A stretch of DNA of 64,000 bases from Cantharellus purpuraceus (taxonomy: Eukaryota; Basidiomycota; Agaricomycetes; Cantharellales; Hydnaceae): NCBI GenBank assembly GCA_025174535.1, contig JALBUN010000012.1:124001-188000 (forward strand). Reading direction: 5' to 3'. Each line of letters opens with the position of its first letter. Position 1 is the first letter of the stretch. Shown in pieces: positions 11,951 through 32,237 of the stretch. Made by a program: the position numbers and the translations under genes. The notes under the pieces were generated by a model, which had not been told where the DNA came from, searched no databases, and saw only the letters and a program-made list of their open reading frames with translations.

Positions 11951-14806
11951 CTACCTGATTGCTCCCCTTCTCTTTACCTGACTTATCTTCTTGCTCCCAG
12001 ACAAAAGCGAGCTACTGGATAATACGGCCATTTTGGAAAAAATCTTGACTGCCCGGTCCCTCGCCGGTCCAAACGTCTCGCCAGATATCATGCGTTCTAG
12101 TTCATGGTCCAGTTGAGCGCTCTCGTGGCTGAAGTTCGCGAGTTCTTCCTGTGCCGTGCTTGTCTTCGCCGCACGGATCAGAAGCTGATGGCTTGCGTAT
12201 AATGTATCTCGCAACGTGCTGAGCTGTCTCGTCGTCTTCTTTCCGAAAGATAGGTTCTCGATGAGTACTTGGTTCATTTGGAACGCAATCTTCTGCAGAA
12301 AGTAGGTCCCCGTAAGAGCAACATGTGCAGCATTCTCCGCATATATGCGGTCCGCCGTCACAGGGATAACTTTATTGAGGACTCGTACGTTTGTATTTCC
12401 CGTAGTCGCGGATGTGTAGGTAATATGTGCTTGGCAGGGGATTGTGTCTGTGAGTACACCTGCTTTGCTCTCCGATCTGTTGTTGACTGCAAATGCGAAA
12501 CCGACACTCGTCTCGTCATCGACCAGGGAGAGAGTATAAGCCAGTGTGTTTATGTTGATGGTAACGCCTGGCCTGGGGTCAGAGACAAAATGCCACTCCT
12601 TCGGCAGATGTAGCTTGACTGTTACGTTACTCGCAATGTCACGACGTTGCGAGACGGCCCTTATCTCCCGTCTGAGTTCGTCGGCTTGGACTGTGGTTAC
12701 GACTCCCCCAGAGACTTGTGCCGCAACTGCTAGGACGTCCAGAGCAACACCACCCCCCGCAATACCGATGATGTTGATCTTCGCTGATTGGCCAAGAGCG
12801 ATCTCCCCAGCTTGAGAGTAGAAAGAGCGTCCATGGGATGAGGTTTGAACGTACTGACAATCTGTGGAACCGATGCCCGTGTTGGATGCTCCGTCGGTGC
12901 ACAAGAATATTTCCGTAGCTTCAGCATATTCTTGTTTGTGGTATCTAGCAAGCCCAAGTGCAACAGCCAACGCGGGACCGAGCGCGGTCGAGCCTTTCGT
13001 CGTTAAATCAAGCACGTGCTTGCGATATTCGTCAATATTCTCTCTAACTGTCTTCCACTGATCCGGCTTGCTTATAATCTGGTGGGCAGCATCCATGCCT
13101 TGTTCGAGGTGTTTGATATCATTAGGATCAATAATCTGGGTGAGCCTTCCTGGTCCCCTTCCGATGAAGCACTCAAGAGAGCTGTGGAACGCCACAATGG
13201 CCACCTTGCGTTCCGGAAAGTATTTTTCCAAGCGATCAAGGTGAACCTGCATCGCGTCTTGGATGCATTCCAACCTAGAAACAGTGTTGGAAAAGGAATT
13301 CCCGCCATGTGCTTTGGAAGCCTGCCACATGCCCTGCAATTTGTTTACTTTGTGGGTTAAAGCCACTTGTGAGGATGGTCAGCAAATAACGGGAATATGA
13401 TGTACCGCTCTAGTGACTCACTAGAACCGGAGATGTCAATACAGAACACAACTAGACCTCTGTCTCTCGTGTTGGAAACAGAAGTCATGTTCGTTGCATT
13501 GTCGGGGGAGGCTCGTAATCCTCGAACGATTGTGTATTCTTCGGCAGTTCTGCGGACATGCAGTTGTTCTTGTGGAATAGAATTGAATGTCCCACAAAAG
13601 AAACACGTTGGAGTCGAAGAAAGAATCGCTGAACAATAGGAACAGGAAGGGGGTGGAACTTCCAACTGGTTAATTTCCAACATCTCAAAGTTTTCGGGGG
13701 AAAGTGTGCCCAGATTCAAGAGAACAATATTCGTGTCTACTTTGGGTACCCTTCTGATCTTGCGAACGGCACCGGATGCTGTTCCAACCGTCATGGTTGT
13801 AGCTTCATCGTATGTGGGAAGTGGTGTCTTTGGAATCGACGAGGATGACCACTTTGTACAGAATAGCCGGGAAAGGAACGAGGGGGTTCGTCTCGCCACC
13901 GAAAGGAACATTGAGGATCGTCTCGTTGCCTTTGTTGCAGAGCTTGAGCTTGCGCCAGACCTAAGATGCTTATTCGGTGATCGACCTTCATTCTTAGTGG
14001 CCATGGGAGGTAGATTCGGGACATAAATCTGCTTTCTATATGAATCCTCAATCGTGGGATCCTGCCAAACCATGCTATTAGCTCTCGGGTTATAGCCTGC
14101 TTGCCAGCGATGCTCACGTATGAATCGACGAAGGAGTTCTGTATAAATTGAATCGTGATTGAGGATTTCCCAACACTCCCCGCGCCGAGTATGGCGATCT
14201 TATATTCAACGCCAGTCCGTGGCGTTATCTGTACAAGCTTGATGAATGCCTCGTCTATGTTGCGGCGCATTTTTGCGCTTGTGCGAAACATGGGAATTCC
14301 CACACTGTTGGCCCATCTCCCGGCCTCGCTGTCTGTCACCTGGCGTAAGTATTCCAGATCGACCTTATTTGCACAGAGAACGGCAGGCACTGTGCTCGTG
14401 TTTCTGAAGGAGCAGCAGAACTGATGACGGGTTGATAGAGTGGCTGTGCGCTACACGACAAAGACGCACATTGTAAATAGCCTTGGCTTCTTCAAAGCTT
14501 TCAGCGGATGTGATAGAGAAGACGATGAGGAATGCTTGTGCGGTCCGCATATACAGTTCACGCAAACTAGAGTATTCTTCTTGCCCCGCTCTACATCACT
14601 TCAAGTCAAGCTTCGACCAAAAAAAAAAAAAACAGAGTCACATACGTGTCAATGATATCGAGAAGACACATATTGTCACCCCTCGAGTTTATGTTCTGAT
14701 GCAAAGCCGTGCGGACACCTGCAGAATAATCACTCTCATCGATCTCTTCGAAATCTTTAGATGGGTTGATGGCTTTGCTTAAAGCGAAGGCACTCCCAAA
14801 CTCCAT
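11951..14806 (-). CDS. Circularly permuted Ras-like GTPase (cpRAS) fused to zinc ribbon and VWA domain
   Basis: Five exons (14646-14806, 14470-14590, 14118-14420, 13422-14061, 11951-13365) keep phase and give 879 residues. GTPase motifs appear in permuted order: G3 DTAGQEE at residue 53, G4 NKVD 112-115, G5 TSAK 141-144, then a short linker, then G1 GAGSVGKS 173-180 and G2 Thr198 in DPTIEDSY. All are intact, including the switch II Gln, so nucleotide binding and hydrolysis are plausible. A Ser-rich linker follows. Next come two CxxC pairs (Cys335/338 and 348/351) resembling a zinc ribbon, then a VWA domain with a full MIDAS (D404-x-S-x-S408, T535, D566) and a helical tail. This matches the cpRAS-VWA architecture described from a few metazoans and protists (Elias and Novotny 2008, from memory). 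The substrate, partners and location are unknown. ATG 14806 is the first start; no P-loop exon precedes it. Confidence 0.9.
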
Positions 14807-15219
14807 AGTTTAGAGGTTGGCTCGGGGGTGGTGTTAAGGCTGGATCTTTATGTGAAGTGAGAGGTTGGATCTTTATGTCAAGTGAGAAGCTGTACTTGGC
14901 GCATTCGAAGTGGAAAAGATCATGCAAATACAATTCCTTAGCACAGCCCATCGAACCAAGGTTACTCAAATGGTGCGTCCATGTGAGTGACATAGTGATA
15001 GGGACCTACTATCAGAGATACACAGGGTACCTGCATTAGAACGCGTGTCTGAATTGGCCATAAGGCTGTGCTGCACTGGCGTGTCAGAAAGAACCACAAC
15101 TTTGGCGCCGTATATTGACTATCACGTGACGTAAGTGCAGCCAGTGCTCCTTAACCTCCTGTCCTTGGGTCACAACAGACCTCCTCAATCGTATTGCAGG
15201 GTGTGGTCTTCTGATAGAA
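14807..15219. other. Divergent intergenic region
   Basis: Lies between the start codons of the cpRAS-VWA gene (-) and the following unknown gene (+), so it should hold both promoters. No coding signal. A short near-duplication around 14853-14885 (GTTGGATCTTTATGT-like) is visible. Confidence 0.5.
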
Positions 15220-17297
15220 ATGTGGAAGCGTTGGTCGACTAGGTCTTCTACGGGTGCTACCTCAGAAAACGACAAGGTGAAGCAACAAGTAGCAGATCCT
15301 TCGGATCGAGGACCTTCAACAACGTTGGCTTCTGAGGTGAAAGTTGCGAATGGTAATGGTGCGAAACAAGAGACTGTATCGGCTGCCCTGGAGCAAGCGG
15401 ACAAGACAGCTGAGGGTCACACTGTTCCCGCTGGTCAGGATCCAGTGGATGTCTCTGGAAAGCAATCGACAGCCCCTGTGAGAGACGGCCGATCGCTTTC
15501 TGCTGAGTCTCCCGGAAGCGTTTCTTCGAGCGCACACCTGCATTCCGAGACCGCCACTTCCACTACTCCGCACGCAGAGCACGCAGAAGTTCCAAAGAAA
15601 TCCTCATCAAGCGAGGTCAGACCTAAAGATGCATCCTCCTCACCCACTCCGGGGAGTGTGGTCAATACCCCTCCATTTTCCAATACCCTTTCAGTCCCAG
15701 GTGCCGAGCTACCAAATGTGCCAATTCACGCACGTCGCCTCTCTTTTCGATCTCTCGCATATTTTTATGGACGCGACAAGGCGATTTCTTCCAGCTCCAC
15801 CTCTCCTATACCCGTTTCCCGGATGCGGGGGCGCACTGAGAAGAAGGCTTATTTATCAGCGATCACGCTTAGGACGCTTATGATCGGATCTAGTTCTCCA
15901 CCGCCACTGCCTGAGACTACGACACTCCTCAAATTGATCAAGTTGCCGAACTCTAAATCTACTGCTGCCCCGCCCTTGCCTGATATCAGGAAGGTCAAAG
16001 GGCAGCTTCTCATCCCCGATTCGGCAAATGCCATCATTTTCCAGCTTCGTCGTCTACCTGTCCCTGATGGCCCTTCATTCCATGTCTCTGGCCATGCCAG
16101 CACTGATTCACTTGTCACCCATCCGGTTTCAGGCTGTGCGCCAATCCATGCTGTTTGCCTCCCATGCACAGATGAAGAAGCGGAGAAGACCTACTTTTCT
16201 CGCCTACATACTGGACATAATCTGTCTCTGTCCCCACAATCGCCACCCGATACAAAGCCTACGGGCTCTTCACCTAATATTGCTGTCGCGTCCTTGGAAT
16301 CGCTTGTATCTGTCTTGAGAGATTTGCATCTTGTCTCGCTTCTTGAATCCCCAGACCTCGGATTCGGGCAACCAGTGGGAGAAAACAACTCTGGTCTCCT
16401 TGCAGGAAGTGTTCCAAGCGCGATTACTGTTATGGAAGGCTTTGAGGAGATAACGGTGCAGCTCATGAAGCTTGGATTTGCTACGAGCAGCGCTGTTCTC
16501 CCTAGCCATGTGGGAATATACCCGCCCACGGACAGGATGTCTGTTTTAACATGTGAGTAAGGAAAGACCTCTTAAGCTTCTATCTGGCGTCTTAAAAGTT
16601 GGACAGACTGGTGGGGATTGGAACTGGTCCTTCCCGAACCCTCAATCCAATTTCTCGCTGTATGTTATTGGTTTCTACTGTTACGACGCTGTTCCTGAGT
16701 ATTATATTTCACAGAAAGCCAAGTCCATTTCTAATACACTGCTCAACTTCCTTTCTGCATTGGCTTTGTTCAACAATGGTGTTCGAGAGGCCTTGCCGTT
16801 CATCCGTTACGTAGCCAGCTTTGTTGATTTTGAGTGGTCGGCAATCAGAGGTCAGGATAGAGGACAAGGCGTTGTTTGTGCGGCTACATGGTAAGCAGCC
16901 GACTCACGGTGTTGCAACTTGCTAACGTGCATTATGTCAGGGTGATGCCTGCTGCTATGGTGAGTATTCTGTAAAGTCAGCTTAGTTTTGTTGTAGATCA
17001 ATCCGACTATAGGTACCACGACCATGGGATTTTGCTCCCCGTCCAAAGGCATCTCCTAAGGCCCCGGCTTCGCCTGAAACCCCGACAGCAAATACTGGTA
17101 AAGGCGACAAGGGTACGGAGGGTACAGGTGCTCCCACTCAGCCAGCTCCCACTCAGCCAGCTCCCGGTGAAGATTCCAATCCATTCGAGACCCCCTACCC
17201 TGTTGCACCCTCCATGCCGATGATGCCACAATTGATGGTCACGCCAGCGACGCTGCCTAAGAGTTTCCCTGTCCCTCCACAGGAGTCAGGTAGTTAA
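15220..17297 (+). CDS. Conserved-looking protein of unknown function
   Basis: Exons 15220-16556, 16599-16659, 16715-16890, 16941-16959 and 17013-17297 give 625 residues in phase. The first intron is only 42 nt and uses GTAAGG. The N-terminal 150 residues are Ser/Thr/Glu-rich and disordered. The middle has an ordered stretch containing PSHVGIYPPTDRMSVLTCDW and DWWGLELVLPEP, followed by a helical region (NFLSALALFNNGVREALPF, RYVASFVDFEW) and WVMPAAMVPRPWDFAPRP. The tail is Pro-rich with a PAPTQ repeat. No signal peptide or clear transmembrane helix. The ordered block looks like a basidiomycete-wide unknown family, but I cannot name it. A 19-nt exon (16941-16959) is required. Confidence 0.75.
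17130..17165 (+). repeat. 15-bp tandem repeat, about 2.4 copies
   Basis: GCTCCCACTCAGCCA repeats in frame and encodes a PAPTQ repeat in the Pro-rich tail of the unknown protein. Confidence 0.8.
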
Positions 17298-30115: not shown

Positions 30116-32237
30116 ATGCTCGGTCGTTCAAGTCCTCAAGAACCCCAGGAGCATGCCGAGGACAGTCGGCCGCTACTACCTCAGTCCGAAGTCATCTTTT
30201 CTGCGGAAGGCGACGACGACGATTATGAGGATCATGAAGAATCCGCATTGCATGACCAAAGACCTATCCCGGAGGAACGAACAGTGGCTCTGCCCTTGAG
30301 GTCCACGATGCAGAGTCGTGAGACAGGTATGAGTAGGTCTATGAGTGGTGATATAAATATGCTTATACTTCCGCAACCCTCAGAGTATGAACTTGACACC
30401 GACGAGCTTGATGACGCTTCGGTATCGAATGTACATTCACAGCGTGGAGAAGAGTATGATGGCCAGTCTATGCCCCTCCTCGTGGGTCTCGTGGACTCGG
30501 CACATGCTCGTGCAAGTTTTGACGGGTCTCCAGGATTCCCTTTGAGACAGGATGGGGAAGTAGAAGAGGAGAATATCGATCTGGAAGAGCTCGCTGCGAA
30601 AAGACATGCAGGGGGTGGGTTACTTGACTCTGTCGCAAATATGGCCAATTCTATCCTAGGAGCAGGTAAGTCTCTTACTGTTTCTTTCTCTCCAAGTTGC
30701 GAGAATCTAACTGCATGGAAAGGAATAATAGGTAGTTTGTTCTTTGGGTTGACCTCAAGCTGCAACTCTAAGCTCTCTTCCAAGGTTTACCCTATGCTGT
30801 CCGACAAGCCGGATTTTTTACTGGAATTTTCCTACTAATTGTTCTGAGTGCCATCACGGACTGGACAATCCGTCTCATCGTCCTTAATGCCAAAATGAGT
30901 GGTAGGAAGTCATACATTGCTATCATGGATCACTGCTTCGGGGGTAGTGGCCGTGCTGCCGTGTCACTTTTTCAATTCGCCATGGCATTCGGAGGTAGGG
31001 ACCCTCGTCCTATTCCATGACCTTCCTTATCATTATTCTTCCTTCTTCCCTCCAGGCATGTGCGCATTTGGGATCATCATCGGTTTGGTTTGGACTCTTG
31101 ACTACGAAGGCACGATGCTGATACATTCCCTTTCAGGTGACACCATCCCTCATGTTATGCGCTTCCTCTTTCCTACTCTCTACAAAATCCCTGTTCTTTA
31201 TCTTTTTACCTCCCGCCAGTTCGTCGTCGCTTTCTGTACCCTCACTGTCTCTTATCCCCTCTCCTTATACCGCGACATCCATAAGCTTTCACGTGCCTCT
31301 GGTCTTGCCCTGATTGGGATGCTCATTATCATCACCTCTGTCGTCATTGAAGGTGCAAAAGTCACACCCGAACTGCGCGGATCCTCTTCACCATCTGTCC
31401 GATTCAGCGTAGTAACACCACGAATAACCGAGGCAATCGGCGTCATCAGCTTCGCATTTGTTTGCCATCATAATTCTCTCCTGATATACGGTGGTCTCAG
31501 AACACCCACACTTGATCGGTTCGCATATGTGACCCACATCTCAACGTTGGTGTCGTTGGTCGCGTGTTTGACTCTGGGGGTGTCTGCGTTTTTGGTATTC
31601 ACAGATAAAACGCATGGAAACATTTTGAATAATTTCTCCCAGGTCTGTCTGCGATTAGAGACGTGATGTTTTTTTTTTGGTACTCAACGTCTTCCCAGAA
31701 CGACACGCTCATAAATGTCGCGCGTTTTGCCTTTGGGCTAAACATGTTCACCACGTTTCCATTGGAGCTCTTCGTTTGTCGTGAGGTAGTAACATCATGT
31801 ATGCAATCCAATAGTTCTGGTGTGCTAAACAACGTTTTGTCACAGGTTATCGAACAATATTTTTTCTCGCACGAGCCATATAACCAACAGCGACACATCC
31901 TTTTCACAACATCCATCAGTTTTGCGGCCATGTTTAGTCGGTCTTCCGTATACTGTCTGCATACCCACACACTGATGTACTTTTAGTTGCCTTAATCACC
32001 TGTGACCTGGGTGTTATGCTAGAAATCACTGGCGGAATTTCTGCTACCGCGCTCGCCTACATATTCCCTGCGGCTTGCTATCTGCGTTTACTTCCCTCCT
32101 CCATACCCTGGACAAGTCGTACGAAACTGCCTGCAGTGCTTTGCGCTGCGTTTGGTGGCATCGTAATGATCTTAAGCTTGTTTTTAGCACTGGGCAAGGT
32201 ATGGACACGAGAGGGCGACGCAAAAATTTGCGTTTAA
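30116..32237 (+). CDS. Vacuolar amino-acid transporter, AVT/SLC38 family
   Basis: Starts MLGRSSPQEPQEHAEDSRPL with about 150 acidic, disordered cytosolic residues. Then the family entry motif MANSILGAGIIGLPYAVRQA (spliced at 30665/30731) leads into 10-11 membrane segments: SAITDWTIRLIVLNAK, CAFGIIIGDTIPHV, RQFVVAFCTLTVSYPLSLYR, GLALIGMLIIITSVVIEG, GVISFAFVCHHNSLLIYG, TLVSLVACLTLGVSAFLVF, FAFGLNMFTTFPLELFVCRE and ISATALAYIFPAACYL. The last residues are REGDAKICV. The family (AAAP superfamily, yeast Avt1-7) exchanges neutral amino acids across the vacuole membrane. The long acidic N-terminus resembles Avt2-like members, but the subtype is uncertain. Tail to tail with NAR1, 184 bp apart. Confidence 0.92.

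Follow-up and report, generated by a model that had tools for sequence, protein, structure and literature searches.

The closest described relatives of the protein considered here are the circularly permuted Ras (CPRas) proteins of the cpRAS-VWA family, reported by Elias and Novotny in 2008 from Dictyostelium, Acanthamoeba, Naegleria, Monosiga, Capsaspora and three animals (PMC2430557). As described there, these proteins of about 840-970 residues carry the GTPase motifs in the order G3-G4-G5-G1-G2, with TIE in G2, behind an N-terminal region of 40-66 residues that is poorly conserved and without recognizable homology; a linker, a four-cysteine zinc finger and a VWA-containing C-terminal half follow. 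The same paper used the distribution of CPRas to argue for parallel loss and, in the portions drawn on here, assigned no function; a term search finds the words fungi, fungal and basidiomycete absent from its main text. In the open-licence literature since then, supplementary files aside, only incidental mentions of CPRas were found: it is a list entry in expression or proteome tables (PMC11764893, PMC5560681, PMC3505798, PMC4082629), and the 2008 work is cited in PMC8296547. The gene analyzed here lies in a 64,000-nucleotide stretch of contig JALBUN010000012.1 from the basidiomycete Cantharellus purpuraceus (the window) and runs on the minus strand from position 14806 to 11951, its five predicted exons encoding 879 amino acids plus stop (Table 1).

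The window protein agrees with the 2008 description in each of the respects just listed, from the N-terminal region and the linker to overall size. In a single chain, G3, G4, G5, G1 and a G2 of the TIE type are followed by a putative four-cysteine zinc ribbon and then by a VWA-containing half homologous to that of CPRas. Judged from its sequence, it is a genuine CPRas of the cpRAS-VWA type, the architecture that an earlier note on this DNA had recognized; the note was also right about the host being a basidiomycete. The gene thus belongs to a known family. Its occurrence in fungi, and the Sec23/Sec24-like core with an inserted Ras domain described below, were not found in the literature covered.

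A protein search returned a full-length match (E reported as 0), and the Ramaria rubella protein aligns with the product end to end, with 554 identities among 862 aligned residues. All four exon junctions (at amino acids 53.7, 94, 195 and 408.3) fall within gap-free stretches of this alignment. Together with the splice model, these results bear out the coordinates, five exons, 879 residues and motifs given in the earlier note. An in-frame TAA stands immediately 5' of the ATG, and the protein opens with MEFGS, as members of the family commonly do. The earlier note had also envisaged an upstream exon carrying a normal P-loop. This finds no support: no GxxxxGK[ST] motif occurs in the three minus-strand frames of the 3 kb upstream, where an intron-split P-loop would escape. 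The motif order is independent of splicing: when the Pfam Ras model is run against all six frames of the genome, its matches along the minus strand cover profile positions 56-95 first, 75-158 next and 1-40 last. That the gene model has merely joined two GTPase fragments or two separate genes is scarcely conceivable in view of the co-linear homologue, the gap-free junctions, the family start motif and the missing upstream P-loop. At E <= 0.001 the 40-Mb assembly contains one such permuted gene, besides other Ras-family matches and three separate Sec23/24 trunk genes.

The Ras identity of the permuted part is clear. The window protein matches Pfam Ras in two stretches (E 2.3e-43), and the best 60 matches of a CPRas profile among PDB sequences are all Ras, nearly all of them KRAS, HRAS or NRAS (best E 1.7e-85). 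In a homologue model the elements run beta3-alpha2-beta4-alpha3-beta5-alpha4-beta6-alpha5-beta1-alpha1-beta2. Unlike canonical Ras (HRAS/KRAS), the domain is opened between beta2 and beta3 and closed through its former termini, with all five motifs intact, in agreement with the earlier note, which had placed the cut between switch I and switch II. With the old C-terminus running on into beta1, the domain has no tail there that could carry a lipid. It shares with the canonical family the effector loop YDPTIEDSY, which we take to be identical to HRAS residues 32-40. Across distant CPRas rows G1-G5 and the effector loop are nearly invariant, a second Exidia glandulosa protein (P0010) excepted, and this conservation, with the intact motifs, argues for a working switch. 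A dead or constitutively bound structural module, for which we see little room given such invariance over great distances, could appeal to the window P-loop, GAGSVGKS, whose Ser stands at a place taken by Gly in 143 and by Ala in 23 of 169 matched P-loops (P0151 has the only other Ser). It could also appeal to P0010, a fast-evolving paralogue in which G3, G1 and G2 are degenerate and the metal-ion-dependent adhesion site (MIDAS) is broken (DVSAAM), so that loss of the GTPase seems tolerated in at least one copy. P0010 is possibly a dead-GTPase version, or in part a gene-model error.

The earlier note had described the Ras domain as fused to a VWA domain. The VWA domain is present; its surroundings suggest a larger partner. 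In predicted structures of the Ramaria and Capsaspora homologues, the non-Ras part matches the core shared by Sec23 and Sec24, in the order N-terminal strand, zinc finger, VWA trunk, beta-sandwich and helical domain. The fold comparison was made on these two models and carried to the window protein by alignment; on this basis the Ras domain would sit inside a whole Sec23/Sec24-like core, near its start, and the 2008 picture of the partner is revised to that extent. Order and fold are those of Sec23 and Sec24 of the coat protein complex II (COPII) inner coat, from the N-terminal strand through the helical domain. CPRas differs from them in having no gelsolin domain, in retaining the MIDAS and in carrying the GTPase within the chain, where the coat proteins work with a separate Sar1 at ER exit sites. 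The missing gelsolin domain was judged from its known size, the known domain boundaries of Sec23 and the room left at the C-terminus. Residues 862-867 of the Ramaria model are matched to Sec23 residues 616-623 in 15 of 16 alignment rows, leaving 11-16 residues; of the 16 rows for the Capsaspora model, four stop at 695-704, and no more than 14-26 residues follow the last one aligned in any row. As modelled, the CPRas core is without a C-terminal gelsolin domain, and we file it as neither Sec23 nor Sec24.

The predicted metal-binding elements of this core are strongly conserved. The four zinc-ribbon cysteines are kept in 96-98 of 99 homologues, and the finger scores as zf-Sec23_Sec24 in 19 of 30 proteins; the fungal copies differ from the 2008 proteins in having a shortened ribbon. 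The MIDAS motifs of the window protein (DISGS for the D-x-S-x-S pattern, TALG and CTDG for the T and D metal ligands) lie in columns conserved in 97-99 of 99 CPRas rows. At the corresponding place the three Sec23/24 trunks of this genome are broken (VDTCLDEE, IDVSHAAV and IDVSYEAM), so the CPRas scaffold may bind a metal-dependent ligand that Sec23 and Sec24 do not.

Sequence matches to the Sec23 families are faint in CPRas itself and clearer in its Ras-less paralogues. The window protein scores 24.6 bits with VWA_2, below the cut-off of 27. The C-terminal part alone gives borderline matches to Sec24A among PDB sequences (best E 0.001) and weak unrelated ones up to E 1; the Sec23/24 link therefore rests mainly on predicted fold and on the Ras-less paralogues, which exceed the Pfam cut-off for Sec23_trunk in four cases out of six scanned, for the zinc finger in two and for the beta-sandwich in none. 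The homologue model is also matched by ArnB structures (8s05, 5a8j) through the VWA domain, a split beta-sandwich and a helical bundle, which is not decisive because the blueprint is shared. One could thus read the core as an ArnB/WAV3-like signalling or ubiquitin-ligase scaffold whose contacts the permuted Ras would gate, its Sec23 likeness reflecting no more than this three-domain blueprint. We regard this as unlikely. In CPRas one chain carries the zinc finger and, behind it, the trunk, the Sec23 alignments are longer than those to ArnB (476-498 against 371 residues), and the zf-Sec23_Sec24 and Sec23_trunk scores point the same way. Nor was any Vwaint family, which we take to be the WAV3-type family name, detected among ten proteins scanned. 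Archaeal ArnB/ArnE (VWA2) with ArnA, according to the parts of PMC12852372 used here, is a phosphorylation-controlled system with the zinc finger on a separate chain and a GTPase-free VWA chain. Among a coat, an ArnB-type signalling protein and a ubiquitin-ligase partner, we lean to the Sec23/24-like scaffold. As a separate observation, chains of the Toxoplasma pre-conoidal ring (PDB 9ya0), Sec23/24-like themselves, fit the CPRas models roughly as closely as Sec23 and exemplify the fold outside the COPII coat; a search for literature linking the pre-conoidal ring with Sec23 returned nothing.

The first residues of CPRas appear to belong to this core and not to a leader. The predicted local distance difference test score (pLDDT) is 97 for residues 1-10 in both homologue models, and the Sec23 rows of the fold alignment begin at model residue 1. 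N-termini resembling MEFGSxFVY recur in fungi, animals and amoebae; of 109 distinct complete ones, 83 pass a leave-one-out evaluation. If the Ras domain was inserted behind this segment, Ras-less relatives are expected to begin with it too. A search with C-terminal pieces of CPRas yielded 62 proteins, 55 of them new, of which 50 lack Ras motifs; 13 that do not begin with Met were dropped and 37 were scored with a position-specific matrix built from the 109 CPRas N-termini, against 3802 internal Met sites and 1549 ATG sites of the window as controls. Thirteen of the 37 exceed the 99th percentile of both controls, where chance would give 0.4. The 37 include P0180 and P0181, probably truncated CPRas models (P0180 because it starts inside the DSYRKQ segment). 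When nine of the 13 were aligned with six CPRas, the two groups shared MEFGSxxVY and the DTN / zinc ribbon segment, and the Ras-domain columns held 0-41 residues in the former against 164-166 in the latter.

On this evidence the permuted domain looks like an insertion after the conserved N-terminal segment, as the models also suggest. The simple N-terminal fusion drawn in 2008, with an unrelated leader in front, accords with the poor N-terminal conservation noted in that paper and with the 24 of 37 Ras-less N-termini that lack the motif by our score; we find it very hard to reconcile with the start motif being common to CPRas and Ras-less proteins, the high pLDDT of the first residues and their place in the Sec23 alignment, and give it hardly any credit. 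In Ras the interswitch hairpin is made up of beta2 and beta3. Judging by how the elements follow one another, the ends of the permuted domain would lie next to each other and thus fit insertion into a loop. Another cpRAS domain is inserted in an alpha-2-macroglobulin-like protein of Dictyostelium (PMC2430557), so that on at least two occasions a host protein has taken up a permuted domain.

The linker behind the Ras domain (13747-14022 in the window) and its counterparts in homologues carry a GFFSxLF-like motif, found in 38 of 132 linkers where shuffled sequences would give 9.3. It often has basic or Ser flanks, similar segments occur in Ras-less paralogues, and a role as amphipathic membrane or partner motif is possible.

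Altogether, we consider it rather probable that CPRas is a GTP-switched, MIDAS-bearing, Sec23/24-like scaffold with a permuted Ras domain inserted near its start. A complete Ras domain would sit between the N-terminal strand segment and the zinc ribbon of the core, the permutation making beta3 and beta2 its ends and so permitting insertion into a loop. GTP binding and hydrolysis would shift switches I and II along with the interswitch. As the domain is attached through the latter, we propose that its nucleotide state reaches the core in cis and that the core, so switched, gates ligand binding at the MIDAS face or assembly with partners. The gene structure, the order and integrity of the motifs, the core fold in two homologues, the place of insertion and the conservation of the MIDAS are well supported by sequence or prediction; from these we infer GTPase activity, coupling in cis, a ligand and possibly a membrane role.

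Several observations weigh against this reading. The window protein matches no Sec23 family in a Pfam scan at E <= 1, and the Ramaria protein scores 14.0 with Sec23_BS, whose cut-off is 33.5. Of the Ras-less N-termini, 24 of 37 stay below the score threshold and several of the 13 that pass are close relatives of one another.

In Sar1 the interswitch movement works in trans. A tentative extension, which we hold to be possible but somewhat doubtful, makes CPRas and its Ras-less paralogues a third, MIDAS-keeping branch beside Sec23 and Sec24, with a GTPase in cis as the counterpart of the Sar1-Sec23 pair; in such a branch the Ras permutation would be a consequence of the domain having entered a scaffold loop by way of its interswitch hairpin. 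A Sec23/24-like core with a loop-inserted Ras would replace "Ras next to VWA" with a concrete, testable device and give the permutation a structural reason. The protein is rare, and its architecture offers a testable idea of what the little-studied CPRas family does.

The earlier note had given the cpRAS-VWA architecture as described from a few metazoans and distant protists. The fungal occurrence is real, and the 2008 main text does not mention fungi; the window copy is not the sole one. Among the best 120 of 289 matches, which form the family list, the top places are taken by proteins of Ramaria, Hysterangium, Sphaerobolus, Exidia and Auricularia and by an ENA protein (P0004). These five named Agaricomycetes belong to the Phallomycetidae (Hysterangium, Ramaria and Sphaerobolus) and the Auriculariales (Exidia and Auricularia), and the fungal copies go under names such as "ras-domain-containing protein", "hypothetical protein" or "VWFA domain-containing". 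Next come animals, amoebae, Capsaspora and others, at about 30% identity over long alignments, many of them named "circularly permutated Ras protein 1". The co-linear architecture and the full-length trees fit a single cpRAS origin, canonical Ras being outside those trees.

P0010 and P0118 sat on very long branches in a first quick tree of 56 rows and were excluded, as were other fast, partial or unnamed rows, from a careful, unrooted tree of 31 rows. The latter places the window protein with three Phallomycetidae (support 98/95) and groups the fungi with the metagenome proteins P0008, P0011 and P0121 (100/99), apart from the rows of Amoebozoa and Holozoa. In an approximately unbiased (AU) test, holding all opisthokonts together was not rejected (p-AU 0.119). 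Joining fungi and Holozoa without the three metagenome sister rows was rejected (p 3.6e-06), which says only that these rows belong with the fungi. Eukprot rows named m.number, presumably choanoflagellates, were labelled unassigned in the 31-row tree and held with the Holozoa in the AU test.

The earlier note had left the choice between filling a gap in the ancestral distribution and transfer. The tree and the AU test favor the former, that is, old presence with many losses over recent transfer, and the tree fits vertical inheritance without proving it. No early-diverging fungus is named as a CPRas carrier among the best 120 matches listed per search. Gain by horizontal transfer from an amoeba or animal is distinctly improbable: its appeal is the patchy distribution, with named fungal carriers among the listed matches restricted to Phallomycetidae and Auriculariales and six other named fungal matches not being CPRas, and this is countered by the 100/99 branch, by the AU result for opisthokonts and by the lack of confirmed relatives when GTDB contigs and IMG/VR were each scanned once with the CPRas profile. 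Those scans gave 14 and 29 pattern matches, none confirmed, and a prokaryotic or viral origin was rejected. Between animals and amoebae the known distribution had a gap, which the fungal copies partly close; they also offer fungi in which CPRas can be tested.

Some candidates were set aside. Metagenome proteins with prokaryote-style names, such as P0143, P0145 and P0155, resembled archaeal CPRas but are probably eukaryotic genes, because the prokaryotic scan was empty. P0163, P0165, P0166, P0167 and P0169 were rejected as fungal CPRas, having G1 before G3 and no MIDAS motif, as was P0159 of Serendipita indica, with two tandem Ras copies of which the first has no P-loop. P0159 may be two merged genes; an arrangement of this sort could also be a step on the way to a permuted Ras. 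The metagenome proteins P0008, P0011, P0022, P0121, P0122 and P0123 are CPRas-like and could come from early-diverging fungi or near relatives of fungi.

Table 1. Features of the CPRas gene and its product (window positions). Boundaries of the cpRAS domain are from homologue-model secondary structure and the alignment gap against Ras-less paralogues.
Feature	Position	Strand	Remarks
CPRas gene	11951..14806	-	5 exons, 879 aa plus stop; junctions checked against Ramaria homologue
Exon 1	14646..14806	-	aa 1 to 53.7: strand MEFGSAFAL, conserved EEIDE..Y..G segment, beta3 to DT of G3
MEFGSxFVY-type strand	14780..14806	-	aa 1-9; common to some Ras-less paralogues
cpRAS domain (inserted part)	14023..14674	-	about aa 45-208, beta3 to beta2
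G3 DTAGQEE	14575..14650	-	aa 53-59; intron 1 inside
Intron 1	14591..14645	-	55 bp, GT-AG; divides codon 54 within DTAGQEE
Exon 2	14470..14590	-	AGQEE of G3; helix 2 to helix 3
Intron 2	14421..14469	-	49 bp, GT-AG
Exon 3	14118..14420	-	G4, G5, helix 5, short joint TPRTGVEYK, beta1, G1, helix 1 to Y195
G4 NKVD	14358..14369	-	aa 112-115
G5 TSAK	14271..14282	-	aa 141-144
G1 GAGSVGKS	14163..14186	-	aa 173-180
Intron 3	14062..14117	-	56 bp, GT-AG; between effector-loop Y195 and D196
Exon 4	13422..14061	-	G2 (DPTIEDSY), linker, zinc ribbon, VWA start up to DISGS
G2 DPTIEDSY	14038..14061	-	aa 196-203; Y195 in exon 3 (YDPTIEDSY = 195-203)
Zinc ribbon C335-x2-C338-x9-C348-x2-C351	13594..13644	-	shortened as in other fungal copies
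VWA / Sec23-type trunk	12641..13455	-	about aa 398-650, exons 4 and 5, intron 4 inside; homologue-model boundaries
MIDAS start DISGS	13423..13437	-	aa 404-408; from alignment and column conservation
Intron 4	13366..13421	-	56 bp, GT-AG; divides codon 409 (M of DISGSM)
Exon 5	11951..13365	-	remainder of VWA, beta-sandwich, helical domain, stop
Sec23-type beta-sandwich	12350..12640	-	about aa 651-747; homologue-model boundaries
Sec23-type helical domain	11954..12349	-	about aa 748-879; homologue-model boundaries; no gelsolin room behind

A [YF]Y pair lies within the last 14 residues of 91 of 158 homologues, fragments included; it is absent from seven listed fungal C-termini (five species, Exidia twice, and P0004) and from six related proteins. 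CPRas of Physarum and other sources (among them P0044, P0091 and P0143) end in a RING finger, a hint of a ubiquitin link; a Pfam scan of the window protein showed no RING.

The neighborhood of the gene gave no functional hint among 17 open frames scanned, no tRNA genes were found, and a divergent open frame at 15133-16557 on the plus strand matched no Pfam family at E <= 0.001. Further along, between window positions 30902 and 55304, lie ordinary-looking genes for an amino acid transporter, Fe-hydrogenase-like, Dfp1/Him1-type and TRP-like channel proteins, an RSE1/DDB1/CPSF1-type propeller, a CPSF_A protein and an EAP30/Vps36 protein.
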